Positions 6,157 through 41,726 of a DNA stretch of 64,000 bases are shown one piece after another. Every line of letters begins with the position of its first letter. Within the stretch, counting starts at the first letter, position 1. The position numbers and the translations under genes were made by a program. Location: contig NZ_BMFJ01000001.1 of NCBI RefSeq assembly GCF_014638275.1, positions 1,848,338-1,912,337 of the forward strand, given 5' to 3'. Source of the stretch: Primorskyibacter flagellatus (GTDB lineage: Bacteria > Pseudomonadota > Alphaproteobacteria > Rhodobacterales > Rhodobacteraceae). The notes under the pieces are model-generated. The model ran no database searches. It was not told the origin of the DNA and was given only the letters and a program-made list of their open reading frames with translations.

Positions 6157-6262
6157 TCGGCAGGTCCGTTGCAGGTGAGTCAGGTTGGCGGGCCGGGTCG
6201 TAGGTGCTCTGCGCGGGAGTATTTCCGGCAAGATGAAGCCGCGTGTTCAAGAGGGTACGGGT

Positions 6263-6670
6263 ATGAGTGCGGCAGAAAACAAGGCCCTGATGCAGCGGAT
6301 CTTTGCGCGGCTGGCAGAGGGGGACGGATCGCTGTACGTTCAGCATCTGGCAGAGGATGCGGTGATGACTGTGACCGGGTCCTATTCCTGGTCGCGACAG
6401 TTCCACGGCAGGGAGTCGATTCTGCGGGACCTTTACGGGCACGTCCGGTCCGTCACCACTGGCACGGGCCGCACCATCGCGGAGCGGTTCCTGGCCGACG
6501 ACGACTGGGTGGTCGTGGAAGCGCGGGGCGACATGACAGCCGCGGACGGCACGCCCTACCGCAACAGCTACTGTCTGATGTACCGGATCGCCGGAGGCAT
6601 GATTGTGGAGGCCAAGGAATATCAGGATTCCGCGCTTTGCGAGCGGGTTCTGGGCCCCTTCCCCGGTTAG
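6263..6670 (+). CDS. SnoaL/NTF2-like protein
   Basis: A 135-residue protein beginning MSAAENKALMQRIF, with the alpha+beta-barrel pattern of the SnoaL/NTF2 superfamily: an N-terminal helix (LMQRIFARLAEGD), then YVQHLAEDAVMTVTGS, a FHGRESI turn and alternating strands ending in YRIAGGMIVEAKEYQDS. Members are small ligand-binding or isomerase-type proteins, and the substrate cannot be read from sequence. The ATG at 6263 is preferred over an upstream in-frame ATG at 6185, because the extension looks non-coding and contains a dispersed repeat. Its stop overlaps that of the convergent gene by two bases. Confidence 0.85.
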   Translation: MSAAENKALMQRIFARLAEGDGSLYVQHLAEDAVMTVTGSYSWSRQFHGRESILRDLYGHVRSVTTGTGRTIAERFLADDDWVVVEARGDMTAADGTPYRNSYCLMYRIAGGMIVEAKEYQDSALCERVLGPFPG

Positions 6671-6984
6671 GGGTTTTCATCCGGTCCGTCGGGTTCTTTG
6701 AGCTCGGCGTTTTCCTTTTCCAGCGCCTCGATCCGTTCGGCCTGTTCCTTCTGGACCGCCACCAGCCCGGCCACGGTTTCGCGCAGGGCGGCCAGATCTG
6801 CGGCCTGGGCGTTGCGTTCGGCGCGCAGGCTGCGGAGTTCCGAAGCGAGGAGCGAGATCTCGCGCGAGGCGGAGCGGGACATCATGATCGCGTCGCGGGC
6901 GCACTGGGCCGGGTCAAAGCAGCTTTGCGCGGCGACAGGGGCCGGGGCGACGAGGATCAGCAGGGCGGCGAGGGTCTGGCGCAT
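6667..6984 (-). CDS. Small exported coiled-coil protein
   Basis: A 105-residue protein. It has a signal peptide (MRQTLAALLILVAPAPVAAQ), a short Cys-containing segment (SCFDPAQCARD) and then a long heptad-like stretch from about residue 35 to 95, rich in Leu, Ala and Glu (LASELRSLRAERNAQ and onward), ending in an acidic tail. This suggests a periplasmic coiled coil, perhaps oligomeric. The start at 6984 is chosen because it gives a clean signal peptide. No family is recognised. It is convergent with the SnoaL-like gene. Confidence 0.75.
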   Translation of the reverse strand: MRQTLAALLILVAPAPVAAQSCFDPAQCARDAIMMSRSASREISLLASELRSLRAERNAQAADLAALRETVAGLVAVQKEQAERIEALEKENAELKEPDGPDENP

Positions 6985-7139
6985 GTGCGGGCTCCGGTTT
7001 GCGTTGTACGACATAGGGCGCGGGCGGCGGGTGTCAGCCTCGCCCGGCCCTTACAAAACCGTTACAGTGGCGTGGTTAAACCGCCCCGAGCGCCGGCTCA
7101 AAAGATCCGCCCGACCCCCTTCTTTCGCAGGAGTTTCCC

Positions 7140-8057
7140 ATGTCGCCCGACGATTTCAAGGATGCAGAAGACTGGTTGATGGCCGAGCTCGAGGATTCGC
7201 TGGACGAAGAGCACGAGCTTGAGATGGAAGACGCGGTCCTGTCGATGAAGATCCGCGAGATCTATCGCAAGGCCCACGGCGCCTCGATCCCGCGGGCGGA
7301 TTATTTCCGGACCCTGCTACGGCTGCAGTCCGAACTGATCAAGCTGCAGGACTGGGTGGTGCACAGCAAGGAAAAGGTCGTCGTGATCTTCGAGGGACGC
7401 GACTCTGCCGGCAAGGGCGGTGTCATCAAGCGGATCACGCAGCGGCTCAACCCCCGGGTCGTGCGGACGGTCGCCCTGCCCGCGCCGTCGGACCGGGAAA
7501 AGACGCAGTGGTATTTCCAGCGCTACGTGCCACATCTGCCGGCGGGAGGGGAGATCGTCCTCTTCGACCGGTCCTGGTACAACCGCGCCGGAGTGGAACG
7601 GGTGATGGGCTTTGCCGACGAGGATCAGGTGGAACAGTTCTTCCAGGACGTTCCGGAGTTCGAACGGATGCTGGTGCGTTCAGGCATCCGGGTGGTGAAA
7701 TACTGGTTCTCCATCACCGACGAGGAACAACAGATGCGCTTCCTGATCCGGATTCACGATCCGCTGAAGCAGTGGAAGCTGTCGCCGATGGACCTGCAGA
7801 GCCGGATCAAGTGGGAAAACTACACCGCCGCCAAGGAAGACATGTTCGCCCGGACCAATATTCCGGAGGCGCCGTGGTATATCGTGCCGGGCAATGACAA
7901 GAAGCGCGCGCGGCTCAACTGCATCGACCATCTGCTCACGCTGTTTCCGTATACCGACGTGCCGAGCGAGGAGATCGCCCTGCCCGACCGGGTCTACAAC
8001 AGCAATTACGAGCGGCATGTGCTGCCGCCCGAATTGTACGTGCCGTCGAAGTACTGA
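7140..8057 (+). CDS. ppk2: Polyphosphate kinase 2
   Basis: Transfers phosphate between polyphosphate and nucleoside di- or triphosphates; PPK2 enzymes usually favour nucleotide synthesis from polyphosphate. The 305-residue length and a single PPK2 domain fit class I. The P-loop is FEGRDSAGKGGVIK (about residues 83-96), followed by the Walker-B/lid region LFDRSWYNRAGVE and the conserved KWSFS-like stretch KYWFSITDEEQ. The tail ends with YVPSKY. An AGGAG ribosome-binding site lies 8 bases before the ATG. It is a monocistronic gene facing a convergent neighbour. Confidence 0.96.
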   Translation: MSPDDFKDAEDWLMAELEDSLDEEHELEMEDAVLSMKIREIYRKAHGASIPRADYFRTLLRLQSELIKLQDWVVHSKEKVVVIFEGRDSAGKGGVIKRITQRLNPRVVRTVALPAPSDREKTQWYFQRYVPHLPAGGEIVLFDRSWYNRAGVERVMGFADEDQVEQFFQDVPEFERMLVRSGIRVVKYWFSITDEEQQMRFLIRIHDPLKQWKLSPMDLQSRIKWENYTAAKEDMFARTNIPEAPWYIVPGNDKKRARLNCIDHLLTLFPYTDVPSEEIALPDRVYNSNYERHVLPPELYVPSKY

Positions 8058-8063
8058 CCCGCT

Positions 8064-8603
8064 TCAGGAGCGGTTGGAGACGTAGAGCGGCGTGAAGAGG
8101 CCCTGGATGAAACCGGGGCGAGCGCCGATGCGGCCGCCTGTCGGGCGATCCTTCTTGGCCGCGGTCATCGGGGCAAGGATGGCCGCGTCAAAGACCCAGC
8201 GACCGCGGCGGCCGATTCCGGCGTCGTCGCGCTGCTTCTTCAGCCAGTCCGTCACAACCGTGGGATCGTCCATCCGGCGCGTGGCGATCGGCAGGTAGAA
8301 GCCGCAGTTGATCCGCTGGCAGAGGACGTCGATGACGGCGCACCGGGCGCGGATGTCTTCGGGGAAGCTGTCCCGAGGCAGCAGGTTCCAGCGTCCGGGC
8401 TGGAAGGCGAAGAACAGGGTCAGGGCGGTGCCGAGGTCGAGTTCCTGGCGGGCTGCGATCCAGCGCACGACGGAAATGTCGATATTCGCGGGATCAATGC
8501 GCCGGACAAAGCTGCACAGCATTTCCGGCTTCAGTTTCTTCAGTAACGTGATCTGGCGCTCCGGCGCCATCGCGATCCAGTCTTTGTGTACTATGGCAAG
8601 CAT
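8064..8603 (-). CDS. DUF4274-like protein of unknown function
   Basis: A 179-residue soluble protein starting MLAIVHKDWIAM. The region CSFVRRIDPANIDISVVRW followed by LDLGTALTLFF recalls DUF4274, whose members carry a D-L-G-T-A-L segment. The match is by eye and only moderately convincing. The second half is basic and ends TPLYVSNRS. The start at 8603 is preferred to one at 8711, since the longer N-terminus is highly basic and unlike the rest. It is convergent with ppk2 (6-base gap) and divergent from the TerB-like gene. Confidence 0.7.
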   Translation of the reverse strand: MLAIVHKDWIAMAPERQITLLKKLKPEMLCSFVRRIDPANIDISVVRWIAARQELDLGTALTLFFAFQPGRWNLLPRDSFPEDIRARCAVIDVLCQRINCGFYLPIATRRMDDPTVVTDWLKKQRDDAGIGRRGRWVFDAAILAPMTAAKKDRPTGGRIGARPGFIQGLFTPLYVSNRS

Positions 8604-8695
8604 GAGCCCCGCCTTTCCCCTTTGGGTTCTTGTTCTTGTCTGCTCACGACGCTTCCGGCCGCAATATTGAAGATACATCGAATTGAGGCGAAACT

Positions 8696-8727
8696 TTGAC
8701 AGCGCAACCAATAGGCGAGCCGCCTAT
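8696..8727 (+). promoter_or_regulatory. TTGACA box with adjacent palindromic operator
   Basis: A perfect TTGACA (8696-8701) is followed by the inverted repeat ATAGGCG-AGC-CGCCTAT at 8711-8727, with two perfect 7-base arms. The palindrome occupies the spacer/-10 region, so a bound dimer would block a promoter reading toward the TerB-like gene. A matching -10 is not clear. Confidence 0.35.
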
Positions 8728-8855
8728 CCAAAAGAATGCCCATTATTTCTGCAATCCTAACTTTGCGAATTTTATTGCCCGTTGTCGTGCAATCGGCACC
8801 GCGGCAGCGCGATGTCGTGATTGGCGCGACGATCAAAGGTGACTATATCGAGCAA

Positions 8856-9290
8856 ATGTTTTCCGAATTCCTAACGCGGCTGGTCCGCCCCGCTCCCGAA
8901 CCGCTGGCGGATGCCGATGCGCGGCTGGCCCTGACCGCGCTTCTGGTCCGTATCGCGCGCAGCGACGGTTCCTACGACCGGGCAGAGCGTGACACGATCA
9001 TGCGCATCTGTTCCGGTCGTTACGCGATGAATACCGGCGAGGCCTCGGCGCTGGTGGCGGAGGCTGAGCAACTGGAGGGCGAGGCGCCGGACACTGTCCG
9101 TTTTACCCGCGCGATCAAGGATGCGGTGGCCTACGAGGACCGGCTCGGCGTGATCGAGGCGATGTGGACCGTGGTGATGGCCGACGGTACGCGCGATCCG
9201 GAAGAGGACGCGCTGCTGCGGCTCGCGGCCTCTCTGCTTGGCGTGACGGATCAGGACAGCAACGCCGCGCGGCTGAGAGTCAGCCGGTGA
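8856..9290 (+). CDS. TerB-like (tellurite resistance B) family protein
   Basis: A 144-residue all-helical protein. The TerB pattern is visible: LTALLVRIARSDGSYDRAE followed by a second half repeat MWTVVMADGTRDPEEDALL, each with an acidic D-G-x-x-x-x-E segment that binds metal in TerB relatives. Despite the name these proteins often act outside tellurite resistance, and no other ter gene is nearby. The start at 8856 (MFSEFLTRL) is chosen over 8736 because the extra 40 residues do not resemble the family. It is coupled to the next gene by a GTGA overlap. Confidence 0.85.
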   Translation: MFSEFLTRLVRPAPEPLADADARLALTALLVRIARSDGSYDRAERDTIMRICSGRYAMNTGEASALVAEAEQLEGEAPDTVRFTRAIKDAVAYEDRLGVIEAMWTVVMADGTRDPEEDALLRLAASLLGVTDQDSNAARLRVSR

Positions 9291-10036
9291 TTGCCAGCCT
9301 GCCGATGTACGACCGGCCCGAGACGGCTGCGGCCAACGACAGGCTCTGGGCCGGGGTACGCGAGCGGCTGCGCGATGCCGGGGTTGACGCGCCTGATGCG
9401 CTCACCCGCGAAGGAGAGCTCTGGGATCACTGGGAAGCGCCCGACCTCCTCCTCTCGCAGACCTGCGGCCTGCCCTACCGGTCGCGGCTGAAGGGCACCG
9501 TCACCATTGTCGGCAGTCCGGACTACGGGCTGGAGAGCTGTCCGCCGGGCTACTATGCCTCCTACGTGGTGGTGCGCGGCGATGACATGGACATCGCGCC
9601 CGAGGACTGGCCGGGAAAGCGGCTGGTCTACAATGAAGGGCGGTCGCAGTCGGGATGGGCGGCGGCGCTGAACCATGCGGCGCGGCTCGGCACATCCTTC
9701 GGGCCCTCCTTCGCCTCGGGCGGGCACCGGCTGTCGGCGCTGGCGCTGGCGGAGGGGCGGGCCGACATCTCCGTGATCGACGCGCAGACCTGGCGGATGA
9801 TCCGGAGGTGGGACGACTGGGCCGCCGGGCTGAAGGTCATCGGGCTGACGGATCCGACCCCGGCCACGCCCTTCATCACCTCTGCCCGAAATACGCCGGA
9901 GACCGCCGCGGCCGTGGCCCTTGCCCTGCGCGAGGCGGTGGCGGGGATGAGCGCGGAGGATCGCGACATCCTCAGCCTCAGAGGGATCGCCACTGTGGAC
10001 GAGGCCGCTTACCTGTCCGTGCCCACGCCGGACTGA
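9287..10036 (+). CDS. PhnD/SsuA-like substrate-binding-fold protein without signal peptide
   Basis: A 249-residue protein with the periplasmic-binding-protein-II fold of the PhnD type: LPMYDRPETAAAND at the start, QTCGLPYR, a hinge VVVRGDDMDIAPEDWPGKR, and SGGHRLSALALAEGRADIS. Its start is a GTG at 9287 that overlaps the TerB stop (GTGA). No signal peptide or lipobox is visible, and no permease or ATPase of the phosphonate type is adjacent. It is therefore probably a cytoplasmic binding protein rather than a transporter component. The ligand is unknown. Confidence 0.8.
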   Translation: MIASLPMYDRPETAAANDRLWAGVRERLRDAGVDAPDALTREGELWDHWEAPDLLLSQTCGLPYRSRLKGTVTIVGSPDYGLESCPPGYYASYVVVRGDDMDIAPEDWPGKRLVYNEGRSQSGWAAALNHAARLGTSFGPSFASGGHRLSALALAEGRADISVIDAQTWRMIRRWDDWAAGLKVIGLTDPTPATPFITSARNTPETAAAVALALREAVAGMSAEDRDILSLRGIATVDEAAYLSVPTPD

Positions 10037-10057
10037 GGCGACTTCAGCGCGGGACAT

Positions 10058-10076
10058 ATGCCCATTTTCCGGGCAT
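10058..10076. promoter_or_regulatory. Short inverted repeat before the transporter operon
   Basis: ATGCCC (10058-10063) and GGGCAT (10071-10076) are separated by seven bases, 22 bases after the stop of the PhnD-like gene and upstream of the candidate operon promoter. This could be an operator or a weak transcription stop. Confidence 0.3.
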
Positions 10077-10103
10077 TTCGTTGCGTCACCCCTGCCGAAC
10101 CCG

Positions 10104-10133
10104 TTGCATTCGCCCAAAATCTGCGCCCTACTC
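10104..10133 (+). promoter_or_regulatory. Candidate promoter of the ABC transporter/amine catabolism operon
   Basis: TTGCAT at 10104-10109 and CTACTC at 10128-10133, spaced by 18 bases, lie about 30 bases before the proposed TTG start of the ATPase gene. The promoter sits inside the reading frame that begins at an ATG at 10058, which argues against that longer start. Confidence 0.4.
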
Positions 10134-10162
10134 CGGACATTCACCACCGGAGAAGCCTGGGT

Positions 10163-10936
10163 TTGCAGCAACCGCCCGTCATCGAGATCCGCGACCTGCA
10201 CAAGAGCTATGGCAGCCTCGAGGTGCTCAAGGGCGTGAGCCTGACCGCGCGCCGGGGCGAGGTGGTGTCGATGATCGGGTCTTCCGGATCGGGGAAATCC
10301 ACGCTCCTGCGCTGCGCCAACCTGCTGGAGGACAGCCAGCAGGGCGACATCCTTTTCAAGGGCGAGGCGGTGCACTGGCGCGGAACAGGGATGCACCGGC
10401 GTCCGGGAGATGCGAAACAGGTGCTGCGGATCCGCACGAACCTGTCGATGGTGTTCCAGCAGTTCAACCTCTGGTCCCACATGACGATACTTCAGAACGT
10501 GATGGAAGCCCCGCTCACCGTGCTCGGCCGCGACCGCGCCGAAGTCGAGGAGAAGGCGCGGGCCTACCTTGCCAAGGTGGGGATCGGCGACAAGGCCGAC
10601 GCCTGGCCCGCGCAGCTATCGGGCGGCCAGCAGCAGCGGGCGGCCATTGCGCGCGGGCTCTGCATGGAGCCCGAGGCGCTTCTGTTCGACGAACCGACCT
10701 CCGCGCTCGACCCGGAGCTGGAGCAGGAGGTCGTCAAGGTCATCAAGGACCTTGCAAACGAGGGGCGGACGATGATCCTCGTCACCCATGACATGCGGCT
10801 GGCGGCGGACGTTTCCGACACCGTCGTCTTCCTTCACCAGGGACTGGTGGAGGAAATGGGGCCGCCTGCAGACGTGTTCGGCGCTCCGAAATCAGAGCGG
10901 CTGAAGCAATTCCTCAGCGCGACGCAGACCGCGTGA
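10163..10936 (+). CDS. ABC transporter ATP-binding protein, polar amino acid type
   Basis: Energises the importer encoded by the following genes. The domain order is complete: Walker A MIGSSGSGKSTLLR, Q-loop MVFQQFNLWSHM, signature LSGGQQQR, Walker B ALLFDEPTSALDPE and switch THDM. It resembles the HisP/GlnQ group, including the extra loop between Walker A and the Q-loop (GTGMHRRPGDAKQ). The TTG at 10163 is chosen because homologous sequence starts right after it, a GGAG lies upstream, and the candidate promoter overlaps the extension from 10058. It heads an operon running to about 19175. Confidence 0.93.
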   Translation: MQQPPVIEIRDLHKSYGSLEVLKGVSLTARRGEVVSMIGSSGSGKSTLLRCANLLEDSQQGDILFKGEAVHWRGTGMHRRPGDAKQVLRIRTNLSMVFQQFNLWSHMTILQNVMEAPLTVLGRDRAEVEEKARAYLAKVGIGDKADAWPAQLSGGQQQRAAIARGLCMEPEALLFDEPTSALDPELEQEVVKVIKDLANEGRTMILVTHDMRLAADVSDTVVFLHQGLVEEMGPPADVFGAPKSERLKQFLSATQTA

Positions 10937-10983
10937 GGCACCGGAACCGGGACACCCGGCCAAGTTCAACAAGGGAGACTCCT

Positions 10984-11718
10984 ATGAAAAAACTGATCCT
11001 GACCACCGCGGCGCTTGCGCTTTCCGCCGGGATGGGCGTGGCGGAAAGCCACATGAAGACCGTGCGCCTCGGGACCGAGGGCGCCTACGCCCCGTTCAAC
11101 TTCATCAACGACAAGGGTGAAGTCGACGGATTCGAGCGGGAGCTGGGCGACGAGTTGTGCAAGCGCGCCGAACTGACCTGCGAATGGGTGACGAACGACT
11201 GGGATTCGATCATCCCGAACCTCGTCTCCGGCAACTACGACGTCATCATCGCCGGCATGTCGATCACCGACGAACGCGACAAGGTCATCGACTTCACCCA
11301 GAACTACACCCCGCCGTCGAACTCTGCCTTCATGGCGCTGTCGGAGGATGTTGATCTGGAAGGCGGCGTGATCGCGGCGCAGACGGCAACCATTCAGGCG
11401 GCCCATATCGCGGAAACCGGCGCGACGCTGGTCGAGTTCGCAACCCCCGACGAAACCATCGCCGCAGTCAAGAACGGCGAGGCCGACGCGGTGTTTGCCG
11501 ATCTCGACTACCTCAAACCCTTCGTCGAGGAATCCGGCGGCGAATATGTCTTCGTCGGCGACAACATCCCGCTTGGCGGCGGCGTCGGCATGGGCCTGCG
11601 CGAATCCGACACCGAGCTGAAGGAAAAGTTTGATGCGGCCATCCAGTCCATGAAGGACGACGGCACGCTGAACCCGCTGATCATCAAGTGGTTTGGCGAC
11701 GACGCCCAGACCTACTGA
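10984..11718 (+). CDS. Periplasmic amino-acid-type substrate-binding protein
   Basis: A 244-residue binding protein for the adjacent ABC importer. A signal peptide (MKKLILTTAALALSAGMGVAES) is followed by the family-3 solute-binding pattern: GTEGAYAPFNF, then IIPNLVSGNYDVIIAGMSIT, TDERDKVIDFTQNY and DAVFADLDYLKPF. The last resembles the lysine/arginine/ornithine and histidine binders. Two cysteines in LCKRAELTCE may form a disulfide, as in that subgroup. The ligand is likely a cationic or polar amino compound; the downstream enzymes suggest an amine. Confidence 0.93.
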   Translation: MKKLILTTAALALSAGMGVAESHMKTVRLGTEGAYAPFNFINDKGEVDGFERELGDELCKRAELTCEWVTNDWDSIIPNLVSGNYDVIIAGMSITDERDKVIDFTQNYTPPSNSAFMALSEDVDLEGGVIAAQTATIQAAHIAETGATLVEFATPDETIAAVKNGEADAVFADLDYLKPFVEESGGEYVFVGDNIPLGGGVGMGLRESDTELKEKFDAAIQSMKDDGTLNPLIIKWFGDDAQTY

Positions 11719-11719
11719 C

Positions 11720-12577
11720 ATGACGGCCGGACCGGGCGGTGCGTCCGCCCGGTTCCCATTGCCTATGTGGTCGCTCGACGAAACAGTGGACAGCTCCGTC
11801 GGACCGCTCGCCGCAGGTCATGCGGGCGACGGGCCGGATCTCGTGCTCGCGCATGGCTGGCCCTGGTCGTCCTACAGCTGGCACCGGGTGATCCCCGCAC
11901 TCGCCACCCGATTCCGCGTGCACTGGTACGACATGCCGGGCTTCGGCCGCTCTACCCTCACGCCATCGCAGCCGCCTTCACTCGGTCTTCAGGGCCGGGT
12001 CTGTGCCGAGATGCTGGAACACTGGGGGCTCAGTGCGCCATTGGTGATCGCCCATGACTTTGGCGGGGCGACGACGCTCAGGGCGCATCTGCTGCATGGT
12101 GCCGACTATGCCGGATTGGTGCTGATGAACGTGGTCGCCATGCGCCCCTGGGGGTCGGAGTTCTTCGACCACGTGGCGCGACACCCAGATGCCTTTTCGG
12201 CACTGCCGCCACATATCCACGCGGCCGTGGTGCACGCCTATATCGGCGGCGCGCTGGCCCATCCCCTGACCGACGAGGACCGGGTCGGGCTTGCGGCGCC
12301 ATGGCTGTCGGGCGACGGGCCGCAGGCGTTCTGGCGTCAGTTCGCCCTTGCCGACGAAGCCTTCACCGCCGAGATCGAACCGCTCTATTCCCGCATCCGC
12401 TGCCCCGTGACCGTGCTCTGGGGGGAGGACGATCCGTGGATTCCGCTGGAGCGCGGGCAGGCGCTGGCCCGTGCCGCCGGAACGACGCTTCACCCCCTGC
12501 CCGGTCTCGGCCACCTGCCGCAGCTGGAAGACCCGGCCGCCGTTACCGCCGCCCTGCAACCCGCGCTTGCCGCCTGA
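11720..12577 (+). CDS. Alpha/beta hydrolase with an Asp nucleophile
   Basis: A 285-residue hydrolase placed between binding protein and permeases of one transporter. The oxyanion region is LAHGWPWSSYSWHRV. The nucleophile elbow is AHDFGG, with Asp where esterases have Ser, as in haloalkane/fluoroacetate dehalogenases and epoxide hydrolases. The acid is probably in WGEDDPW and the base is the His in LPGLGHLPQLEDP. It starts 1 base after the binding protein stop and ends 13 bases before the permease, so it is cotranscribed. The substrate cannot be assigned; an ester or halogenated group is possible. Confidence 0.88.
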   Translation: MTAGPGGASARFPLPMWSLDETVDSSVGPLAAGHAGDGPDLVLAHGWPWSSYSWHRVIPALATRFRVHWYDMPGFGRSTLTPSQPPSLGLQGRVCAEMLEHWGLSAPLVIAHDFGGATTLRAHLLHGADYAGLVLMNVVAMRPWGSEFFDHVARHPDAFSALPPHIHAAVVHAYIGGALAHPLTDEDRVGLAAPWLSGDGPQAFWRQFALADEAFTAEIEPLYSRIRCPVTVLWGEDDPWIPLERGQALARAAGTTLHPLPGLGHLPQLEDPAAVTAALQPALAA

Positions 12578-12590
12578 CCGCCGAGGACCG

Positions 12591-13466
12591 ATGTTCGACT
12601 TCTGCGCCGATCCCAAGAGCCTCGAAGGTTTCCGGTGGCTGGTCTGCTACCTGACCACCGGCAAACACCTGCTGTTTTACCAGAGCTTCTTCTTCGTCAT
12701 CGCGCTGATGCTGGTGACGGCACCGGTCGCGCTTGGCGTCGGGTTTCTTGGCGCGCTGGCGTCGCGATCGCGGATCCTGCCGGTGAAGTGGATCGGACTC
12801 GGCTATACCTCCATCGTGCGCGGGGTGCCGGACATCGCCTTCTTCCTGTTCATGCCGCTGGCGCTGGATCAGGGGCTGGAATGGCTGCGTCACAAGACAC
12901 GCTGCCCGGACTGGGACCAGCCGGTCCGGCAGGGCAACGATTTCGTCGTCTGCGCACAAGCCAAGCTGCCGCTGTCGAGCGCGCCGCAATGGGTGCACGA
13001 ATACTACGGCGTCGCGCTTGGCATCGGGGCCTTCGCCTTCGTCTTCGGTGCCTTCGCGGCCTATGTGCTGGCGGGCGCGATGAACGCCGTGCCGCGCGCG
13101 CAAATGGAAACCGCAGAGGCCTATGGCATGACCCGCCGGCAGGCCACCCGGCGCATCCTGATCCCGCAGATGTGGGTCTATGCCCTGCCCGGCCTGTCGA
13201 ACCTGTGGATGATCCTCATCAAGGCGACGCCGCTGCTGTTCCTGCTCGGCATTACCGATGTGGTCTACTGGGCGCGCGAACTGGGCGGGCGCAAGACCTC
13301 GGCCTTCGACTACCCGCACCCGGACTGGCGGCTGTGGTACTTCCTAGCCCTGCTGGTGTTCTACCTGACGCTGACCAAGGTCTCGCAGCTTGGCTTCGAC
13401 CGGCTGGCGCGGCGGCTGTCGCGCGGACAGGCGACGCTTGGCGGGATGCAGGAGGCCAAGGGATGA
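12591..13466 (+). CDS. ABC transporter permease 1 (HisQ/HisM family)
   Basis: A 291-residue inner-membrane permease with about five hydrophobic segments. The EAA loop that contacts the ATPase reads ETAEAYGMTRRQATRRILIPQ (given only as its pattern E-A-Y-G-x9-I-x-x-P). It is longer than the usual 220-240 residues because of an insert around residues 95-140 that contains the Cys pair in RCPDW and VVCAQ, likely periplasmic. It overlaps permease 2 by ATGA. Confidence 0.93.
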   Translation: MFDFCADPKSLEGFRWLVCYLTTGKHLLFYQSFFFVIALMLVTAPVALGVGFLGALASRSRILPVKWIGLGYTSIVRGVPDIAFFLFMPLALDQGLEWLRHKTRCPDWDQPVRQGNDFVVCAQAKLPLSSAPQWVHEYYGVALGIGAFAFVFGAFAAYVLAGAMNAVPRAQMETAEAYGMTRRQATRRILIPQMWVYALPGLSNLWMILIKATPLLFLLGITDVVYWARELGGRKTSAFDYPHPDWRLWYFLALLVFYLTLTKVSQLGFDRLARRLSRGQATLGGMQEAKG

Positions 13467-14302
13467 GCTGCCTCCAGACCATCGCGGATTACGGCCTGCG
13501 CTCCCTCGGGATCGGAGAGAGGCTGCTGCCCAAGACCGACTTCACGCTCTGCCAGCAGTTCACGCTGATCGGGTCGGGGCTGATCTGGAACGTGTATTTC
13601 GCCATCCTCGCCCTGTCGCTCGGCTTCTTCCTGTCGATCTCCGTGGCGCTCGCGCGCAACTCCACTGCCCTGGCGGTGCGCAAACCGGCGGAGTGGTTTA
13701 CTTTCGTGTTCCGCGGCTCGCCGCTCTTTATCCAGTTCTTCCTGTTCTACGAGGCCTTCACGCTCCTGCCCAAGAACGGGATCGAGCTGAACCTGGGCTT
13801 CGTGGAGATCACCGCCGGCACGCGCTGGCTGACCCGGGCCTGGGCGGGGGCGCTGATCGTACTGTTTCTCAACACCTCGGCCTATGCGGGGGAAATCTTC
13901 TACGGCGCGCTGCGGTCCGTCCCGAAGGGCGATCTGGAGGCCGCGGATGCCTATGGCTTTTCGGGCTGGAAGAAGTTCCGCAAGATCACCTTCCCGACGA
14001 TGCTGCGGCTCGGCTGGCCGGCCTATACCAATGAATCTATCTTCCTGTTCCACGCCACCACGCTGGTCTACTTCTCCTCCTTCCCGGCGTGGCAGCAATC
14101 GGGCGATGCGCTCTATTACGCGAGCTATTTCGCGGACAAGACCTTCAACCCCTTCATCCCCTACCCGATCCTCGCCTTCTATTTCATCCTGCTGAGCCTC
14201 GCGATCATACTGGTTTACGGACGCATCTACCGGTATCTCAACCGGCACCTGCCGCAGGACAAAAGACCCAGATTCCGGGTCCGGCCGCAATTGGTGAGAT
14301 AA
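13463..14302 (+). CDS. ABC transporter permease 2 (HisQ/HisM family)
   Basis: A 279-residue partner permease. The ABC-contact motif is EAADAYGFSGWKKFRKITFP. Hydrophobic segments lie at about residues 40-65, 80-97, 128-145, 196-212 and 240-262. Like its partner it has a longer N-terminus and first loop than typical family members. The start codon overlaps the previous stop (ATGA), and the stop is immediately followed by the next ATG, which indicates tight coupling. Confidence 0.93.
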   Translation: MSCLQTIADYGLRSLGIGERLLPKTDFTLCQQFTLIGSGLIWNVYFAILALSLGFFLSISVALARNSTALAVRKPAEWFTFVFRGSPLFIQFFLFYEAFTLLPKNGIELNLGFVEITAGTRWLTRAWAGALIVLFLNTSAYAGEIFYGALRSVPKGDLEAADAYGFSGWKKFRKITFPTMLRLGWPAYTNESIFLFHATTLVYFSSFPAWQQSGDALYYASYFADKTFNPFIPYPILAFYFILLSLAIILVYGRIYRYLNRHLPQDKRPRFRVRPQLVR

Positions 14303-34783: not shown

Positions 34784-35845
34784 ATGCGCATAACCGCCGT
34801 GACATGTGTGAAGAACGAAGGCCCCTTCCTGATCGAATGGGTCGCGTTCAACCGTGTCATCGGGGTGACAGATTTCCTGTTCTATTCCAACGACTGTTCG
34901 GACGGCACCGACCGGCTGCTGGATGCGCTGGCGGCTGCGGGGGTGGTGCAGCACCTGCCGAACCCGGCGCAGGGGCGCAACTACCAGATGGAGGCGCTGA
35001 AGGACGCGCGCAATCATCCGGTGGTGAGCGAGGCCGACTGGGTCTGGATCGCCGACGTGGACGAATTCCTGAACATCCATGTGGATGACAACACCCTGCC
35101 CGCGCTGATCGCGGCCTGCGGCAACCCGCAGACGATTTCGGTGCATTTCCAGTTCTTCGCCAATGCCGGCGTGACGGCGTTCGAGGACCGGCCCGTGATT
35201 GCGCAATTCTCTCGCAGCCACAACCCGGACATCTGGTGCGGTGAGCTGGCAATCGAGGTCAAGAGCCTCGTGCGCAAGGACTTTCCGCTGCAATACTATG
35301 GCGCGCACCGGCCGTTCTTCCGGGCCAAGCTGGCGCCGAAGAAGCGACCTGCGTGGACGGACGGATCGGGGCGACCTGTGCCGCACAAGTTCCTCGTCGC
35401 CGCCAACGACCGGCGTATCCGCAAGTTTCCGGCGCAGGGTGCGCGGCAGTTCGCGACGCTGAACCATTATGCGCTGCGCTCGCTCGACAGCTATCTCGTC
35501 AAGAACGACCGGGGGGACGTGAACCGCGAACACCGGGCCTTTGACGACACCTACTGGCGGGAGCGGAACGACATGTCCTGCGAGGACCTGTCGATCCAGC
35601 GCTACCTGCCCTCGCTCGCCGCGGAAACCGCGCGGCTGATGGCCCTGCCGGGAGTTGCCGAGCTTCACGAGGAAGCCTGCGCGCGACACCGGGCGCGACG
35701 GGACCAGCTGCTGGAACAGGCGGAGTATCAGGCGATGAGGGCACAGCTGATGAAGGCGGGCACGATGTCCCCGGCGGAGGAGGCGCTGCTGGCGGTGCTT
35801 GGCCTGCCGCCCCTGCCCTCTCCGTTTGCGGAGGCGGCGGAATGA
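34784..35845 (+). CDS. Glycosyltransferase family 2-like protein, first of three
   Basis: 353 residues. The N-terminus TAVTCVKNEGPFLIEWVAFN leads into DCSDGTDRLLDAL, and WVWIADVDEFLNIH at about residues 88-101 carries the metal-binding D-x-D of a GT-A fold. It belongs to the group often labelled Glyco_tranf_2_4. The start at 34784 (MRITAV) is preferred over 34652. It overlaps the next gene (ATGA) and heads a set of surface-glycan-type enzymes. Acceptor and sugar are unknown. Confidence 0.9.
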   Translation: MRITAVTCVKNEGPFLIEWVAFNRVIGVTDFLFYSNDCSDGTDRLLDALAAAGVVQHLPNPAQGRNYQMEALKDARNHPVVSEADWVWIADVDEFLNIHVDDNTLPALIAACGNPQTISVHFQFFANAGVTAFEDRPVIAQFSRSHNPDIWCGELAIEVKSLVRKDFPLQYYGAHRPFFRAKLAPKKRPAWTDGSGRPVPHKFLVAANDRRIRKFPAQGARQFATLNHYALRSLDSYLVKNDRGDVNREHRAFDDTYWRERNDMSCEDLSIQRYLPSLAAETARLMALPGVAELHEEACARHRARRDQLLEQAEYQAMRAQLMKAGTMSPAEEALLAVLGLPPLPSPFAEAAE

Positions 35846-36501
35846 CTCCGCGCCTGCGCGTCGTGAACCTGGGCCTGCCGAAGTCGGGCACCACCACGCT
35901 TGGCCGGGCGCTTGGCCGCGCGGGGCTCAAGACAGTGGACAACCGGGTGCATCACGACATGACCGAGAAGGAAGAGATCAACGGCCTCTTTGTCGGGCAT
36001 CTGATGTACACGGATTACTACACCTCAGGCGATCCGCTGGCCCAGCTTGAGGAGTTCGACGCGTTTGGCGAAATCTCGGTGCTGCAGGACGGCAATTCCT
36101 GCTGGCCGCAGATGGATTTCGGGCTGATCGAGGCGATCCGGACGCACCATCCGGGCGTGAAGTTCGTTGCCAGCTGGCGGGACGCGGCGAAGCTGGCGGA
36201 GTCGATGAAGAACTGGAAGAACATGGTCGCGCGGCTCAAGCGGAACGTGGTGCCGGGGCTGCCGACCGGGTTCGGCCGGCCCGAGGGTCAGCGCATCCGC
36301 TGGATCGAGGCGCATTACGCCTTTCTCGACCGCATCTTTGCCGGGGACCCGACCTATTTGCGGCTGGACATGGCCGCGCCGGACGCGCCGGCCCAGCTTG
36401 GCAGGCACATCGGGCGCGACATCCCGTGGTGGGGTCAGGCGAACCGGAACCGCAAGGCGGGTGTCGCGGGTGACGATGCGGAGCCGACGGACGCCGCATG
36501 A
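35842..36501 (+). CDS. Sulfotransferase-like protein
   Basis: 219 residues. The PAPS-binding loop reads VVNLGLPKSGTTTLGRALGR, the standard 5'-phosphosulfate motif with its Lys. A second motif, VKFVASWRDAAKLAESMKNW, fits the 3'-phosphate-binding R..S segment. It is shorter than typical sulfotransferases (about 250-300). It overlaps genes on both sides (ATGA at each end), so it is made together with the glycosyltransferases, and likely sulfates their product. That assignment is inference. Confidence 0.85.
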   Translation: MTPRLRVVNLGLPKSGTTTLGRALGRAGLKTVDNRVHHDMTEKEEINGLFVGHLMYTDYYTSGDPLAQLEEFDAFGEISVLQDGNSCWPQMDFGLIEAIRTHHPGVKFVASWRDAAKLAESMKNWKNMVARLKRNVVPGLPTGFGRPEGQRIRWIEAHYAFLDRIFAGDPTYLRLDMAAPDAPAQLGRHIGRDIPWWGQANRNRKAGVAGDDAEPTDAA

Positions 36502-38846
36502 AGATCCACCTGCATATCGGGCTGGAAGGCTGCGGCACGATCCGCCTGCAAGAGGTGCTGGCCGAAAAGCGGTCGCAGCTTGAGGGCAAGGGCGTGCTGT
36601 TCCCGCGCTCGCCCGGTGCGCGCAACCATACGCGACTGTTCATGGCGGCAAGCGCGCCGGAACAGGTGGATCCGCTGCGGCACAGCCGGGGGTTTGCCGA
36701 TCCGGCGGCCCAGGCGGCGCTGCGCGATCAGCTGGCGGACGGGCTGGCGAAGGAGGTCGCGAAGGCGAAGCCCGATGTACTGATCCTTTCGGCGGCGCAG
36801 TTGGCCTCGGGGCTTGCCACGCGGGCGGAGCTTGAGGGGCTGCGCGATCTGCTGGCCCCGCTTGGCGGCGAGGTCACAGTGACCGCGCATGTGGACGAAC
36901 CGGCGCGGGTACTGGCGCGGGCCTATGCCGAACAGGTGATGGAGGGGCGCGCGCGCGGGCTGGACCTTGAACTGAAGGCGACGCGGGCGAAGGACTGGTG
37001 GCGGGCCTGCCTGTCGGCCACACCGGACCCTGCTCCGGAAAAGGGGTTGTTCCTCAGGACGCAGGCCCCGGCCTTCTGGCTCGACTATCCCGCGCTGGTG
37101 GCGCATTGGGACGCTGTTTTCGGTGCCGGATCGACGCGGCTGCGCAGCTATGATCCGCAGGCTTGGGCGCGCGAGGACTTTACGGGTGAGCTGCAGGCCG
37201 CCTTCGACATCCGCGACCAGATCGGCAAGGCGCAGCCGTGGGAGCCGCCCGAGGAGCCCTCGGCCGAGTGGCTGGCGCGGGCGCGGCAGATGAACGCGCT
37301 TCTGGTGCGGCTGCTGGCGCGCGGAGAGCTGGCGATGCCGCGTCAACTCTGGAAGAAGTTCCTGGACGAGCTGAAGGTGGACGGCCCGCCGGTCGATCCG
37401 GCCTCGCTTTTCGCGGTGTCGGCGCATTTCGCGGCGCGAAACCGGGCGCTTTGCGATGCGCATCCGGCGCTCAGCCCCGAACTGATGCATCCGGCCGCAC
37501 CGGCAGAACCGTGGCGCGAACCGCCGCCCCGCATGGGCTTCCGCGCCTCGCAATACCTTCTCGCCTGGCTCTGGCGGATCGAGCGCGCGACGGCGGAGCA
37601 GGCAAAGGCACAACAGGCGCCGGAGTCCGAAGTCGCCCCTGCCCAGGAAGTCGCGGACGGGATCACGCCGGAGGCGCGCAGGGTCATGTCTCCGCAGGCG
37701 GTAGAGAAGTTCCGGTCGCTGCAGGGGTCGTCGTTCAAGCCGCACAACCGGATCGGGCGGGTGAACGAGGAAGAGCTGGCCGAAGCCTTCGCCGCAGTCC
37801 CGCCACGCGAACTGCCCAAGGGCAGCAGCGGCCGCGTCATCGTGGGCTGCATGAAGAACGAGGCGCCCTACATCGTCGAATGGATCGCCTATCACCGCGC
37901 CGTCGGTTTCGACACCTTCCTGATCTACACCAACAACTGCACCGACGGGACGGACGACATCCTCAAGCGGCTCGACGCCATGGGGATCGTGCATCACCGG
38001 GACAATGACGGCTGGACGGGGAACTCTCCGCAGCAGTTCGCCCTGGACGCGGCGCTCGAGGAACCGGTGCTGCAACAGGCGGAATGGATCGCGCATATCG
38101 ACGTGGACGAATTCGTCAACATCCGCTGCGGCAACGGCACACTGGACGATTTCTTTGCGCTGGTCCCGCAGGCGACCAACGTGGCGATGACCTGGCGGCT
38201 GTTCGGCCATGGCGGGGTCACGGCGCTGGCCGACCGGCCCGTGATCGAACAGTTCACGCAATGCGCACCGAAATACTGCCCCAAGCCGCATACGGTCTGG
38301 GGTTTCAAGACCATGTTCCGCAACATCGGGGCCTATTCCAAGCTGTCCTGCCACCGACCCAACAAGCTGGAAGAGGACCGCGCGGGCGATGTCGTCTGGG
38401 TCAACGGCAACGGCATGGTGACGACGAAGGAAATGATCAAGAACGGCTGGCGTAGTTCCAAACGCTCCATCGGATATGATCTGATCCAGTTGAACCACTA
38501 CGCCCTGCGCTCTGCCGACAGTTACCTGGTGAAACGTCAGCGCGGCCGGGCGCTGCATGTCGATCGCTCCATCGGGCTGAACTACTGGATCCGGATGGAC
38601 TGGTGCGACCACACCGACGTCACAATCCACCGCAACCTGCCCCGCCTGCGGGCAGAGATGGCGCGGCTGATGGCCGATCCGGAGCTCAAGCGCCTGCATG
38701 ATGCGGGTTTCGCCTGGCACAGGGCCAAGGCGGAGGAGCTGCACAACACCCCGGAATTCCAGGAGCTTTACGATCAGGCCCTGTCGATCCGGCTGAATGA
38801 AACCGAACGCGTCGCCTATGCGCTGGCGCAGGACCTGGAGAGCTGA
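36498..38846 (+). CDS. Fusion: degenerate sulfotransferase-like domain plus glycosyltransferase 2 domain
   Basis: 782 residues with two parts. Residues about 1-330 begin IHLHIGLEGCGTIRLQEVL, which lines up with the sulfotransferase loop hIGLPKxGTxxLQ, but Pro-Lys is replaced by Glu-Gly, so PAPS binding is doubtful. An Ala/Glu/Gln-rich linker (about 370-400) follows. Residues about 445-700 are a GT-A domain: GCMKNEAPYIVEWIAYHRAV, NNCTDGTDDILKRL and HIDVDEFVNIRCGN. It sits between a sulfotransferase with an intact loop and an FkbM methyltransferase. The architecture is unusual to me. Confidence 0.85.
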   Translation: MKIHLHIGLEGCGTIRLQEVLAEKRSQLEGKGVLFPRSPGARNHTRLFMAASAPEQVDPLRHSRGFADPAAQAALRDQLADGLAKEVAKAKPDVLILSAAQLASGLATRAELEGLRDLLAPLGGEVTVTAHVDEPARVLARAYAEQVMEGRARGLDLELKATRAKDWWRACLSATPDPAPEKGLFLRTQAPAFWLDYPALVAHWDAVFGAGSTRLRSYDPQAWAREDFTGELQAAFDIRDQIGKAQPWEPPEEPSAEWLARARQMNALLVRLLARGELAMPRQLWKKFLDELKVDGPPVDPASLFAVSAHFAARNRALCDAHPALSPELMHPAAPAEPWREPPPRMGFRASQYLLAWLWRIERATAEQAKAQQAPESEVAPAQEVADGITPEARRVMSPQAVEKFRSLQGSSFKPHNRIGRVNEEELAEAFAAVPPRELPKGSSGRVIVGCMKNEAPYIVEWIAYHRAVGFDTFLIYTNNCTDGTDDILKRLDAMGIVHHRDNDGWTGNSPQQFALDAALEEPVLQQAEWIAHIDVDEFVNIRCGNGTLDDFFALVPQATNVAMTWRLFGHGGVTALADRPVIEQFTQCAPKYCPKPHTVWGFKTMFRNIGAYSKLSCHRPNKLEEDRAGDVVWVNGNGMVTTKEMIKNGWRSSKRSIGYDLIQLNHYALRSADSYLVKRQRGRALHVDRSIGLNYWIRMDWCDHTDVTIHRNLPRLRAEMARLMADPELKRLHDAGFAWHRAKAEELHNTPEFQELYDQALSIRLNETERVAYALAQDLES

Positions 38847-38848
38847 GC

Positions 38849-39604
38849 GTGAAATCCGCCTTCCCCGATCATTCCGAACAGTTCCCCGGATCCTCCGACC
38901 CGGACCTGCGCGCGCGGCTTGCCAAGGCCGGGCGGCCCAGCCACATCACCAGTTTCGGCGTGACCTTCCCGACCGACCTTCCGCCGATGATCCCGCGCAT
39001 CCGCCGCGTGCTGGCCGCGAACGAATACGAGGAGAAGGAGACCAAGGCCGCACTGCGTGTCGTGCGGCGCGGCGACAAGGTGGTCGAGCTTGGGGCGGGC
39101 ATGGGCTACATGTCCTCCATCGTCGCGGTGAACTGCGCGCCGTCAGAGGTGCATGCGTTCGAGGCCAACCCCGGCCTGATCCCCTGCATCCGCCGCGTGC
39201 ATTCGGAAAACGGCATCGGCAATGCCACGGTGCACCATGCGCTGCTTGGCGATGCGGCGGGGGAAGCGACCTTCTACGTGCGCAAGATCTTTGTCGCCTC
39301 CTCCCTCCTGCCCGAGCCCGCGGACGACGTGACCCACACCGCCACCGTGCCCGTCCTGCCCGCGCGCGAGACTATCGCGAAGATCGACCCCGACATCCTG
39401 ATCTGCGACATCGAGGGGGCGGAGCTGGACGTTCTGCCCATGCTCGACCTGTCGCGGCTCCGCGGGGCGATCGTCGAACTGCATCCGCAGTACATCGGGC
39501 TCAAGGGCGTTCAGGTGGTCTTCGACGCGATGAACGCGGCGGGGCTGGTCTACAATCCGAAGCGGTCGATCTCAAAGGTCGTCACCTTCTCCCGGCCCGA
39601 GTGA
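38849..39604 (+). CDS. FkbM-family methyltransferase
   Basis: 251 residues from a GTG at 38849, two bases after the previous stop. SAM-binding motif I reads KVVELGAGMGYMSSIVAVN, followed by an acidic VHAFEANPGLIPCIRRV. The DPDILICDIEGAELDVLPML stretch is the typical FkbM post-motif. FkbM enzymes O-methylate sugars or other hydroxyls, often in glycan loci. Its stop is immediately followed by the ATG of the third glycosyltransferase. Confidence 0.92.
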   Translation: MKSAFPDHSEQFPGSSDPDLRARLAKAGRPSHITSFGVTFPTDLPPMIPRIRRVLAANEYEEKETKAALRVVRRGDKVVELGAGMGYMSSIVAVNCAPSEVHAFEANPGLIPCIRRVHSENGIGNATVHHALLGDAAGEATFYVRKIFVASSLLPEPADDVTHTATVPVLPARETIAKIDPDILICDIEGAELDVLPMLDLSRLRGAIVELHPQYIGLKGVQVVFDAMNAAGLVYNPKRSISKVVTFSRPE

Positions 39605-40663
39605 ATGCGCTGCCTTGCCGTTCTGACGGTGCGCAACGAGGGCGCCTTCCTGCTGGAATGGCTGGCTCATCACCGCGCCTGCGGATTCACCGATTTCCTC
39701 GTCTTCTCAAACGACTGTCAGGACGGCACCGACCGGATGCTCGACAGACTGGAGGAGATGGGTGAGCTGACCCATGTCCGCAATGACGGCCCCTATGATC
39801 AGGGCGGAATCCAGTTCACTGCCTACAAGACCGCCGACCAGATGGACATCGTGCAACAGGCCGACTGGATCGCCACGCTCGACGTCGACGAGTTCGTCAA
39901 CATTCATGCCGGGGACCATACCGTCCCTGCGCTGCTGGCCGCGCTGCCGGAGGCCGACGCGATCACCCTGACGTGGCGGCTGTTCGGCTGCGGCGGCGTC
40001 GCGCAATATGTCGACGCGCCGGTGACGCAGGTCTTCACCAGGGCCGCGCCGGCGGTGATGTACTGGCCCTGGCGCTCGGCCATGTTCAAGACGCTCTACC
40101 GAAACGACGGAACCTACGGAAAGCTTGGCGTGCACCGCCCCCGCTCTCCCGATCCGGCCCGCGTCGGACAGGCGCGCTGGTTCGATGGCGAGGGGCGGGA
40201 ACTGGACGACAAGTTCCGCACGCAGCGCATCTTCTCGAACTACGGGCGGTCCAATTATGCGCTCGTGCAGCTGAACCACTACCCGCTTGGCGCGATGGAG
40301 AGTTACGTGCTCAAGGCCGACCGGGGGCGCGCGGTGCATTCGGACCACATGCTGGGCGTCGACTACTGGGTGGAGAGGAACTTCGTGCAGGAAGAGGACC
40401 GGTCCATCGCCGCCCTCGCCCCGCAGATGAGCGAACGGCTGGCCGCCTACAAGGCCGATACACAGCTTGGCGCACTGCATGACGCCTCCGTGGCATGGCG
40501 CAAGACGCGCTTCGACGCGCTGATGCTGCAGGAACCTTTCCGCGCGCTGTTCGGCCGGCTGCTGATGACGCCCCCGACCCGCGCCGTGCCACTGAACGAG
40601 GCGCGGTTCCTCGTGCGCTACGCCACCCGCGCCCGCGAGGCAGGGGAGCAGGGCGAAGGCTGA
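39605..40663 (+). CDS. Glycosyltransferase family 2-like protein, third domain copy
   Basis: 352 residues, the same family as the gene at 34784 and the C-terminal part of the fusion. LTVRNEGAFLLEWLAHHRAC opens the protein; NDCQDGTDRMLDRL and TLDVDEFVNIHAGD follow, with D-x-D at about residue 92. The three copies share layout but differ enough to be old duplications or separately acquired. It is the last gene in the overlapping run. Confidence 0.9.
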   Translation: MRCLAVLTVRNEGAFLLEWLAHHRACGFTDFLVFSNDCQDGTDRMLDRLEEMGELTHVRNDGPYDQGGIQFTAYKTADQMDIVQQADWIATLDVDEFVNIHAGDHTVPALLAALPEADAITLTWRLFGCGGVAQYVDAPVTQVFTRAAPAVMYWPWRSAMFKTLYRNDGTYGKLGVHRPRSPDPARVGQARWFDGEGRELDDKFRTQRIFSNYGRSNYALVQLNHYPLGAMESYVLKADRGRAVHSDHMLGVDYWVERNFVQEEDRSIAALAPQMSERLAAYKADTQLGALHDASVAWRKTRFDALMLQEPFRALFGRLLMTPPTRAVPLNEARFLVRYATRAREAGEQGEG

Positions 40664-40805
40664 GGCACGCCCCGCGACGGACGTGAAGAACGGACACGGG
40701 AAATTGCCCGCTGACGCGGCGGATTGCGGGGATCTTCCGGGCAAAGGTGTTAAGATCCGGCGAAGACTCACCCCGACTCGCGGACCACATGTACAGGGAC
40801 ACCCC

Positions 40806-41726
40806 ATGGACGGCACTTTTCCCCGCAACGACCTCTCCGGACTGGCCAAGCCGGAATGGACCCGGCGCGTGATGGAGCAGGCCGATCTCGAGGGCGCGTC
40901 GGACCGGCTTGGCCGGTCGCATTTCGCCGCCTTCATCAAGTCCGGCCCGGTGTTGCTGGTCAGCTTCGAAACCGTGCAGGGGATGCGCGGGCTGACGGAC
41001 TCCGCGCAGCCGCTTGGATGGCACCTGTCGCGCAAGCTGGGCTGGTCGCACCTTCTGCTGGCCTCGGACGGCGACACCTGGTTCCGGGCGGAGGAGGTCT
41101 ATGCCTATTTCGACCAGCTGATCGACGAGGGCTTCTTCGAGGAATTCGAAACCGTCCTGTTCTATGGCGCGGGACCCTGCGGCTACGCGGCGGCGGCCTT
41201 CTCCGTCGCTGCGCCGGGCAGCACCGTCGTGGCGATCCAGCCGCAGGCCACGCTCGACCCGGATGTCACCGAGTGGGACGACCGCTTCACCCATATGCGG
41301 CGCACCGACTTCACCAGCCGCTTCGGTTTCGCACCCGACATGATCGACGCGGCGGCGCAGGTTTTCGTGGTTTACGATCCGCTGGAGTCGCATGACGCGA
41401 TGCATGCGGCGCTGTTCACCCGGCCGAACGTCACCAAGCTGAGGATGCGCAACATGGGCGAGGCGTTGCAAAGCCACCTGCTGTTCATGAAGCGCCTGTT
41501 CCCGATGCTGCACGCCGCAGCCGAGGGGCGACTGACCCCGCAGTATTTCGCGACGCTGTTCCGCGCCCGGCGCAACCACCTGCCCTATCTTCGCCGCCTG
41601 CTGACCCGGCTGGAAAACTCGGACCGGCCGGGCCTGACCGCAATGCTCTGCCGCAACGTGACCGCGCGCTACCCGGCACCGCGCTTTGCCCGCAGGCTCA
41701 AGGCGCTGGAAAACCCGGAAGAGTAA
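40806..41726 (+). CDS. Hydrolase-fold-like protein lacking an evident nucleophile
   Basis: 306 residues. The centre has TVLFYGAGPCGYAAAAFSVA (about residues 118-137) followed by VVAIQPQATLDPDV. It resembles alpha/beta-hydrolase-like proteins of glycan loci in which the elbow is YGSSMGGYAA. Here the Ser position is Gly, although a Cys is two residues on. The C-terminal part is helical and basic. Similar proteins are sometimes labelled PAPS reductase, but I see no such motif. It lies 142 bases after the third glycosyltransferase; the start at 40806 has better context than 40683. Function unknown. Confidence 0.75.
   Translation: MDGTFPRNDLSGLAKPEWTRRVMEQADLEGASDRLGRSHFAAFIKSGPVLLVSFETVQGMRGLTDSAQPLGWHLSRKLGWSHLLLASDGDTWFRAEEVYAYFDQLIDEGFFEEFETVLFYGAGPCGYAAAAFSVAAPGSTVVAIQPQATLDPDVTEWDDRFTHMRRTDFTSRFGFAPDMIDAAAQVFVVYDPLESHDAMHAALFTRPNVTKLRMRNMGEALQSHLLFMKRLFPMLHAAAEGRLTPQYFATLFRARRNHLPYLRRLLTRLENSDRPGLTAMLCRNVTARYPAPRFARRLKALENPEE

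Follow-up and report, generated by a model that had tools for sequence, protein, structure and literature searches.

Gene organization of the locus

The window analyzed here is a stretch of 64,000 nucleotides from the alphaproteobacterium Primorskyibacter flagellatus (contig NZ_BMFJ01000001.1, positions 1,848,338 to 1,912,337), whose genome of 4.6 Mb is assembled in 10 contigs and lies near Pseudooceanicola. It contains a run of six genes, here designated A to F (Table 1), which code for three glycosyltransferases (GTs), a sulfotransferase, a methyltransferase and a hydrolase-fold protein. A and C, the latter a GT fused to a degenerate sulfotransferase domain, form the core of a unit that is inherited together in related bacteria and is usually accompanied by B and E, while D and F are variable. 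The run had been picked out in an initial annotation made from the DNA sequence, whose observation of a tightly packed sulfotransferase/GT island is confirmed and whose interpretation as a dedicated biosynthetic system is partly supported.

Table 1. Features of the gene run (positions in the window)
Feature	Position	Strand	Description
A	34784..35845	+	GT2 glycosyltransferase (PF13704, GT92-like), 353 aa; Pfam 7.3e-19, 68.5 bits; DVDEF motif; opens the block
B	35842..36501	+	putative 3'-phosphoadenosine 5'-phosphosulfate (PAPS) sulfotransferase, 219 aa, Sulfotransfer_4; optional block member
C N-terminal part (aa 1-434)	36498..37799	+	predicted pseudo-sulfotransferase domain, PAPS site lost
C C-terminal part	37800..38846	+	GT2 glycosyltransferase domain; PF13704 6.1e-23 at aa 453-552, 81.6 bits
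D	38849..39604	+	FkbM-family S-adenosylmethionine-dependent methyltransferase; optional member
E	39605..40663	+	GT2 glycosyltransferase, 352 aa; Pfam 1.5e-23, 83.6 bits
F	40806..41726	+	predicted catalytically degenerate alpha/beta-hydrolase-fold protein; separate unit ahead of pyrC

As described in the initial annotation, the first five genes overlap or abut: A and B as well as B and C overlap by 4 nt (gaps of -4 nt), C and D are separated by 2 nt, and D and E directly adjoin each other (0 nt). C is a 782-aa fusion (36498-38846) with the GT2_4 domain at its end. The GT2 domains of A, C and E indeed belong to one family; they share 36-39% mutual identity, all three carry the D-x-D-E-F motif in the form DVDEF, and their scores for PF13704 (Glyco_tranf_2_4) lie above the Pfam cut-off of 27.5 bits. 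B is a PAPS sulfotransferase by motif and Pfam match: it scores 24.1 bits for Sulfotransfer_4 (cut-off 22.8), a match at E 0.01 or better was obtained for 14 of 15 aligned sequences, and all 15, including that of the window, keep Lys and Thr in the P-loop as well as the 3'-phosphate-site Arg and Ser, which we take to be the PAPS-binding residues. A kinase for adenosine 5'-phosphosulfate (APS), which would supply PAPS, is encoded in the same genome. D exceeds the cut-offs of both TIGR01444 (69.1 bits, cut-off 37.7) and PF05050 (36 bits, cut-off 22.7).

The run is bordered by the divergent genes moxR and coxE upstream, and F is followed by pyrC, pyrE and dnaB downstream. In agreement with the initial annotation, no flippase, polymerase or polysaccharide exporter was recognized among 20 open reading frames (ORFs) in and around the run, A to F included, which were scanned with Pfam; the remaining window and the genome were not searched for them. 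In a simple hydropathy scan, none of the proteins A to F contains a strongly hydrophobic segment, the highest mean over 19 residues being 1.39 as compared to 2.08 for the MlaE permease used as a control, which is encoded at position 48370, about 6.6 kb downstream of the run.

Co-inheritance of the block in relatives

The conservation of the block was followed in loci from named relatives, for which the best 80 of 480 loci confirmed by a match to F were used, a choice that favors close relatives; the best named match of F itself is found in Pseudooceanicola batsensis (80%), a species of which strain HTCC2597 (L078) carries the block. Twelve of these 80 loci lack one of the borders in the stretch and were excluded, leaving 68 loci with both moxR and pyrC, and a gene was counted as present when tblastn matched the protein of the window at E 1e-6. 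The complete arrangement A-B-C-D-E-F is present in 26 of the 68 loci, 19 lack D, four lack B and D, one lacks B, 13 contain E and F only and five contain only F. A and both parts of C are thus either all present (50/68) or all absent (18/68) and are never split in these two-border loci. B is found in 45 and D in 27 of the 50 block-bearing loci, and B is missing in six of the 56 named loci that have A and C. E is present in 63 of the 68 loci, 13 of which lack A-B-C. On a quick tree built from PyrC, PyrE and F, these patterns require at least eight state changes for the set of A and C, at least five for E, at least four for B and at least 13 for D.

A wider set was taken from a sample of 198 genomes of the family, which was drawn automatically. 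It comprises 40 loci (39 genomes, one of them, G010, twice), which were picked by hand down the ranking of F matches. A, the N-terminal domain of C and the GT domain of C occur together in 15 of these loci, and the stretch of one further locus (L047) stops inside the block. Fifteen of these 16 loci belong to the closer 20, and a single one (L076) to the farther 20. In addition, 14 loci were picked by hand from matches to C, one of which (L175) comes from a genome, G153, that is already represented among the 40. All 14 contain both parts of C; A is missing only where the contig starts (L168), and B is missing in L164. In L163, A-B-C-E is found away from moxR and pyrC, neither of which lies within 20 kb, and D and F are absent. 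The proposal that the run is a recurring, co-inherited block therefore holds for A and C, usually together with B, and mostly for E, with D and F present in some loci and absent from others.

The close packing of the genes is likewise conserved. With start codons picked by a simple rule, gaps of 30 nt or less were found between A and B in all 49 resolved cases (of 50 named relatives), between B and C in 50/50, between D and E in 33/34 and between C and D in 26/33 named relatives; in loci without D, C and E are at most 30 nt apart in 16 of 24 cases. Where B is missing, A is joined to C at -4 to +28 nt (6/6 loci). The overlaps suggest that translation of these genes may be coupled. F, by comparison, is a unit separate from the A-E run: its distance to E is 30 nt or less in none of 73 named relatives, with a median of 134 nt.

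C is a glycosyltransferase fused to a degenerate sulfotransferase domain

The initial annotation had counted two PAPS-type domains in the run. For B, this is supported by the 15 intact sequences, but the domain of C is degenerate. Residues 1-434 of C gave no match to a Pfam sulfotransferase family in any of 54 sequences, including that of the window. In the family sample, the fusion domain was counted in 54 genomes, which matched at E 2.6e-48 or better; 15 weaker matches among a total of 69 matching genomes were left out. The domain was modeled by AlphaFold2 with a predicted local distance difference test (pLDDT) score of 91.0, and the best solved match of the model is the bacterial sulfotransferase 3rnl (Z 15.2, root mean square deviation (rmsd) 4.1, 240 aligned residues), followed by heparan-sulfate sulfotransferases. 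Sequence searches of solved structures returned nothing useful for C, F, B or E.

Two free-standing relatives of the C domain (L185 and L188) were reached through weak sequence matches in the family sample; they keep a P-loop of the sequence EKTGTT as well as the Arg and the Ser. Of five stretches with possible relatives, these two matched again, and since their proteins are weak or unseen in Pfam, the label sulfotransferase rests for them on motif and similarity. Using an alignment to motif-intact relatives to assign the motif positions, the P-loop Lys, the Arg of the 3'-phosphate site and the Ser were each found in 0 of the 54 C sequences, and the position of the Arg is occupied by Asp in 41 of them. 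Because the fold is kept and the PAPS-binding residues are absent, residues 1-434 are referred to as a pseudo-sulfotransferase domain; judged from its model, it is a degenerate sulfotransferase domain of retained predicted fold and lost PAPS site, which can probably no longer hold PAPS. One could argue that the domain has remained active as a sulfotransferase and has an unusual PAPS site, given that its fold is kept at high predicted confidence and is closest to carbohydrate sulfotransferases, and that His44 and several Arg and Trp residues are invariant across the 54 sequences. The loss of all three binding residues in every sequence, and their retention in the two free-standing relatives, make this very improbable.

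C is encoded in one open frame across both parts in each of the 56 named loci that contain A together with its N-terminal domain, and it is split over two frames in only one of the 54 genomes of the family sample (G009). The idea that the sulfate transferred by B is recognized by C was considered and is weakened, since C persists in the six of 56 loci that lack B; the domain thus does not simply read B's sulfate. As Pfam sees only the GT half of C, genome annotation is likely to miss the fusion.

A possible further fusion of this type was noted on the 262-kb plasmid pPGA1_262 of Phaeobacter inhibens DSM 17395 (L177, 7867-10140), where a lone GT2_4 protein of 757 aa shares 48% identity with the GT domain of C, and about 390 of its N-terminal residues are matched by neither C nor Pfam.

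F is a separate protein with a degenerate hydrolase fold

The start codon of F is probably the ATG at position 40806, and the upstream GTG at 40683 appears to be wrong, as judged by alignment to the nearest relative; F is therefore placed 142 nt after E. The AlphaFold2 model of F (pLDDT 90.3) adopts an alpha/beta-hydrolase fold, with a best Z score of 13.1 over 212 residues (rmsd 3.9), and its matches to esterases, a chain of the Gap123 complex and a capsule O-acetyltransferase are tied at Z scores around 13. Gly occupies the position of the nucleophile in all 59 sequences compared, and none of them has a His where the paralogs have theirs. In a wider set of 21 F sequences, Ser and His are kept in four (L074 and three mirrored copies); of the 17 remaining ones, 16 carry Gly and one carries His in place of the nucleophile. 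F is hence best described as a predicted alpha/beta-hydrolase-fold protein that lacks both the nucleophile and the catalytic His, and is probably non-catalytic. The hydrolase fold recognized in the initial annotation is thus borne out by prediction, but F is separable from the run and its active-site residues are lost.

The distribution of F is wider than that of the block, with a match in 151 of the 198 family genomes as compared to 54 of 198 for the fusion domain of C, and 50 of these 54 genomes have an F-family match. F-like domains are fused to GT2_4 domains in Loktanella and twice in Paracoccus liaowanqingii, where one of the GT2 domains lies below the Pfam cut-off, to a rhamnosyltransferase in P. 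alcaliphilus and to a sulfotransferase in P. albus. These fusions link the family to the assembly and sulfation of glycans.

Several paralogs of F were encountered. Next to moxR or pyrC, GT2 genes are flanked by mirrored paralogs of F in L057, L060, L061, L066 and L069, and in the first three of these loci the paralogs have retained the catalytic Ser and His. On plasmid p2 of Thioclava sp. GXIMD4215 (L183, 3511-10869), F paralogs with a serine elbow adjoin a sulfatase and a formylglycine-generating enzyme; one of them is annotated as phosphoadenosine phosphosulfate reductase, contains no Pfam family and is probably misannotated. A homolog of F with 31% identity is also found on a 16-kb plasmid of a Bacillus velezensis sea water record (NZ_CP061939.1, 13323-14087), which might be due to transfer or contamination.

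Proposed function of the gene block

We propose that A-B-C-(D)-E is a cytosolic operon, whose products extend and decorate a short oligosaccharide on an acceptor that is synthesized elsewhere, and give this reading a probability of about 0.5. A lipid-linked acceptor at the inner leaflet, that is, the core of lipopolysaccharide (LPS) or a glycolipid, seems likeliest, because neither membrane segments nor genes for an initiating transferase, a flippase or a polymerase were recognized in the run. Up to three sugars would be added one after another by A, by C and, in loci that have it, by E; B would add sulfate from PAPS and D a methyl group, each where it is present. The former sulfotransferase domain of C might bind or position the acceptor for its own GT domain or scaffold a complex, and guidance of the acceptor is considered its most likely role. 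F would be a separate, probably non-catalytic accessory protein, and other machinery would export the lipid-linked glycan. The product, the acceptor, the order of steps, the coupling of translation and the roles of the dead domains are all inferred. The initial annotation had likewise favored a protein- or lipid-linked product over a capsule, which is plausible. Its further suggestion of a dedicated route of sulfation and methylation agrees with the PAPS motifs kept in B and with the APS kinase in the genome, but neither B (45/50) nor D (27/50) is an obligatory member of the block.

Several observations weigh against the proposed function. C-like GT2 domains with 34-50% identity occur without A or the N-terminal domain of C in eight of the 40 wider loci (L057, L059, L060, L061, L066, L069, L074 and L077), so the family of these GT domains is not confined to the block. 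E is missing beside A-B-C in three of the 14 loci picked by C (L169, L172 and L173), the N-terminal domain of C is retained in the loci without B, and in L165 and L166 the block is present with no F between E and pyrC. A scan limited to sigma-70 type promoters found no promoter-like site, and the promoter and terminator scan as a whole was uninformative. The LPS core was chosen as the acceptor by elimination. Finally, the same genome holds a second GT/sulfotransferase cluster (L158 on contig C2), and the products of both could be parts of one exported polysaccharide.

The last point leads to the strongest competing explanation, according to which the block provides the enzymes for assembling the repeat unit of a sulfated capsule or exopolysaccharide, with the polymerase and the exporter encoded elsewhere in the genome. 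Sets of GTs and sulfotransferases are known from such systems, as in the xss (synechan) cluster (available text of PMC8205485), and the capsule genes of Rhodobacter capsulatus are likewise spread over several loci, according to the portion of PMC10218006 at hand. On the other hand, no Wzx, Wzy, exporter or initiating transferase was found in the 20 scanned ORFs, whereas the xss cluster includes Wzx, Wzy and a polysaccharide co-polymerase (PCP); and A and C come and go between the same borders with no export genes recognized, the inserted genes in the relatives not being annotated. A role in capsule assembly is considered less probable than decoration of a short lipid-linked glycan. The second cluster is a candidate for a separate sulfated polysaccharide; it (C2:633000-652900, about 5014-13885 of that stretch) contains a GT2, a nucleotidyl transferase, an epimerase, a GT4, a GT2_4, a DUF5927/Branch protein and a Sulfotransfer_2 protein.

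Glycosylation of proteins such as flagellin in the cytosol would call for soluble GTs and a methyltransferase, and for no flippase. The content of the block would fit such a modification of flagellin or of another exported protein. A match to flagellin is missing in eight of the 54 genomes with the C fusion domain versus 28 of the remaining 144 (Fisher p 0.54); some of the eight are drafts, six of the eight lack a match directly, and G153 and G197 were assigned by their absence among the matches listed. The presence of the fusion domain in genomes lacking a flagellin match argues against a strict dependence on flagellin and does not bear on other protein acceptors; protein glycosylation as a whole is regarded as unlikely.

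Returning to the decoration of a lipid-linked glycan, it is conceivable that C is a guided GT, in which the dead sulfotransferase has been kept as a glycan-reading module that confines the attached GT to a single acceptor, which would probably be anionic or sulfated. Together with the dead hydrolase alongside, both former enzymes would then serve as specificity parts for an envelope glycan of the Roseobacter group. This idea is tentative, and we would sooner doubt than accept it; if true, sugar addition could be guided in a new manner by the dead domain of C. In any case, the fusion of a GT to a dead sulfotransferase is a testable case in which an enzyme domain may have become a specificity module.

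Comparison with known systems

Among the papers listed in searches of the open-licence literature, none was recognized that deals with this locus or with a bacterial protein in which a GT is joined to a dead sulfotransferase. The literature on the capsule receptor of the R. capsulatus gene transfer agent was followed with the block as a candidate, and no link was found. A table in the accessible part of PMC3230580 lists one sulfotransferase among strain-specific proteins, and no link to the block was made.

The folds predicted for the N-terminal domain of C and for F have counterparts among solved structures. The N-terminal domain of C resembles 3rnl, NDST-1 (8ccy and 1nst) and 3-OST (3bd9 and 1t8t), with Z scores of 14.0 to 15.2; it differs from these carbohydrate sulfotransferases by the absence of the Lys, Arg and Ser of the PAPS site and by its fusion to a GT2 domain. 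F is similar in fold to the Gap123 complex chain 6oyc_B (Z 13.0) and the meningococcal capsule O-acetyltransferase 6yuo (Z 12.7), but its nucleophile is replaced by Gly and the catalytic His is missing, and neither of the two is singled out, as plain esterases score equally. Related to F are also the F-family fusions of the Rhodobacterales (Loktanella KBK07_RS16000, Paracoccus albus PAF20_RS18680 and others), which combine an F-like domain with a GT2_4, a rhamnosyltransferase or a sulfotransferase; in these, the partners are joined in one protein, whereas they are encoded by separate genes in the window, and the P. albus protein shows a serine elbow by pattern.

With regard to sulfation, the available text of PMC8205485 mentions sulfotransferases that act on lipo-oligosaccharides in rhizobia and mycobacteria. 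These resemble what is proposed for B in that sulfate would be placed on a short lipid-linked oligosaccharide, a likeness in proposed function. According to the same text, published in 2021, cyanobacteria were the only bacteria from which a sulfated polysaccharide had been reported, even though many sulfotransferases were known from sequence; a compact and recurring sulfotransferase/GT operon in marine Rhodobacterales represents a defined target in the search for such polymers. The nearest described system that was found is the xss cluster for synechan of Synechocystis 6803, which has in common with the block that GTs and PAPS sulfotransferases are encoded in one cluster. As far as described in the available text of PMC8205485, it comprises eight GTs together with Wzx, Wzy and PCP. 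In the block there are three GTs, one of them joined to a dead sulfotransferase, as well as an FkbM gene, and export genes were not seen.

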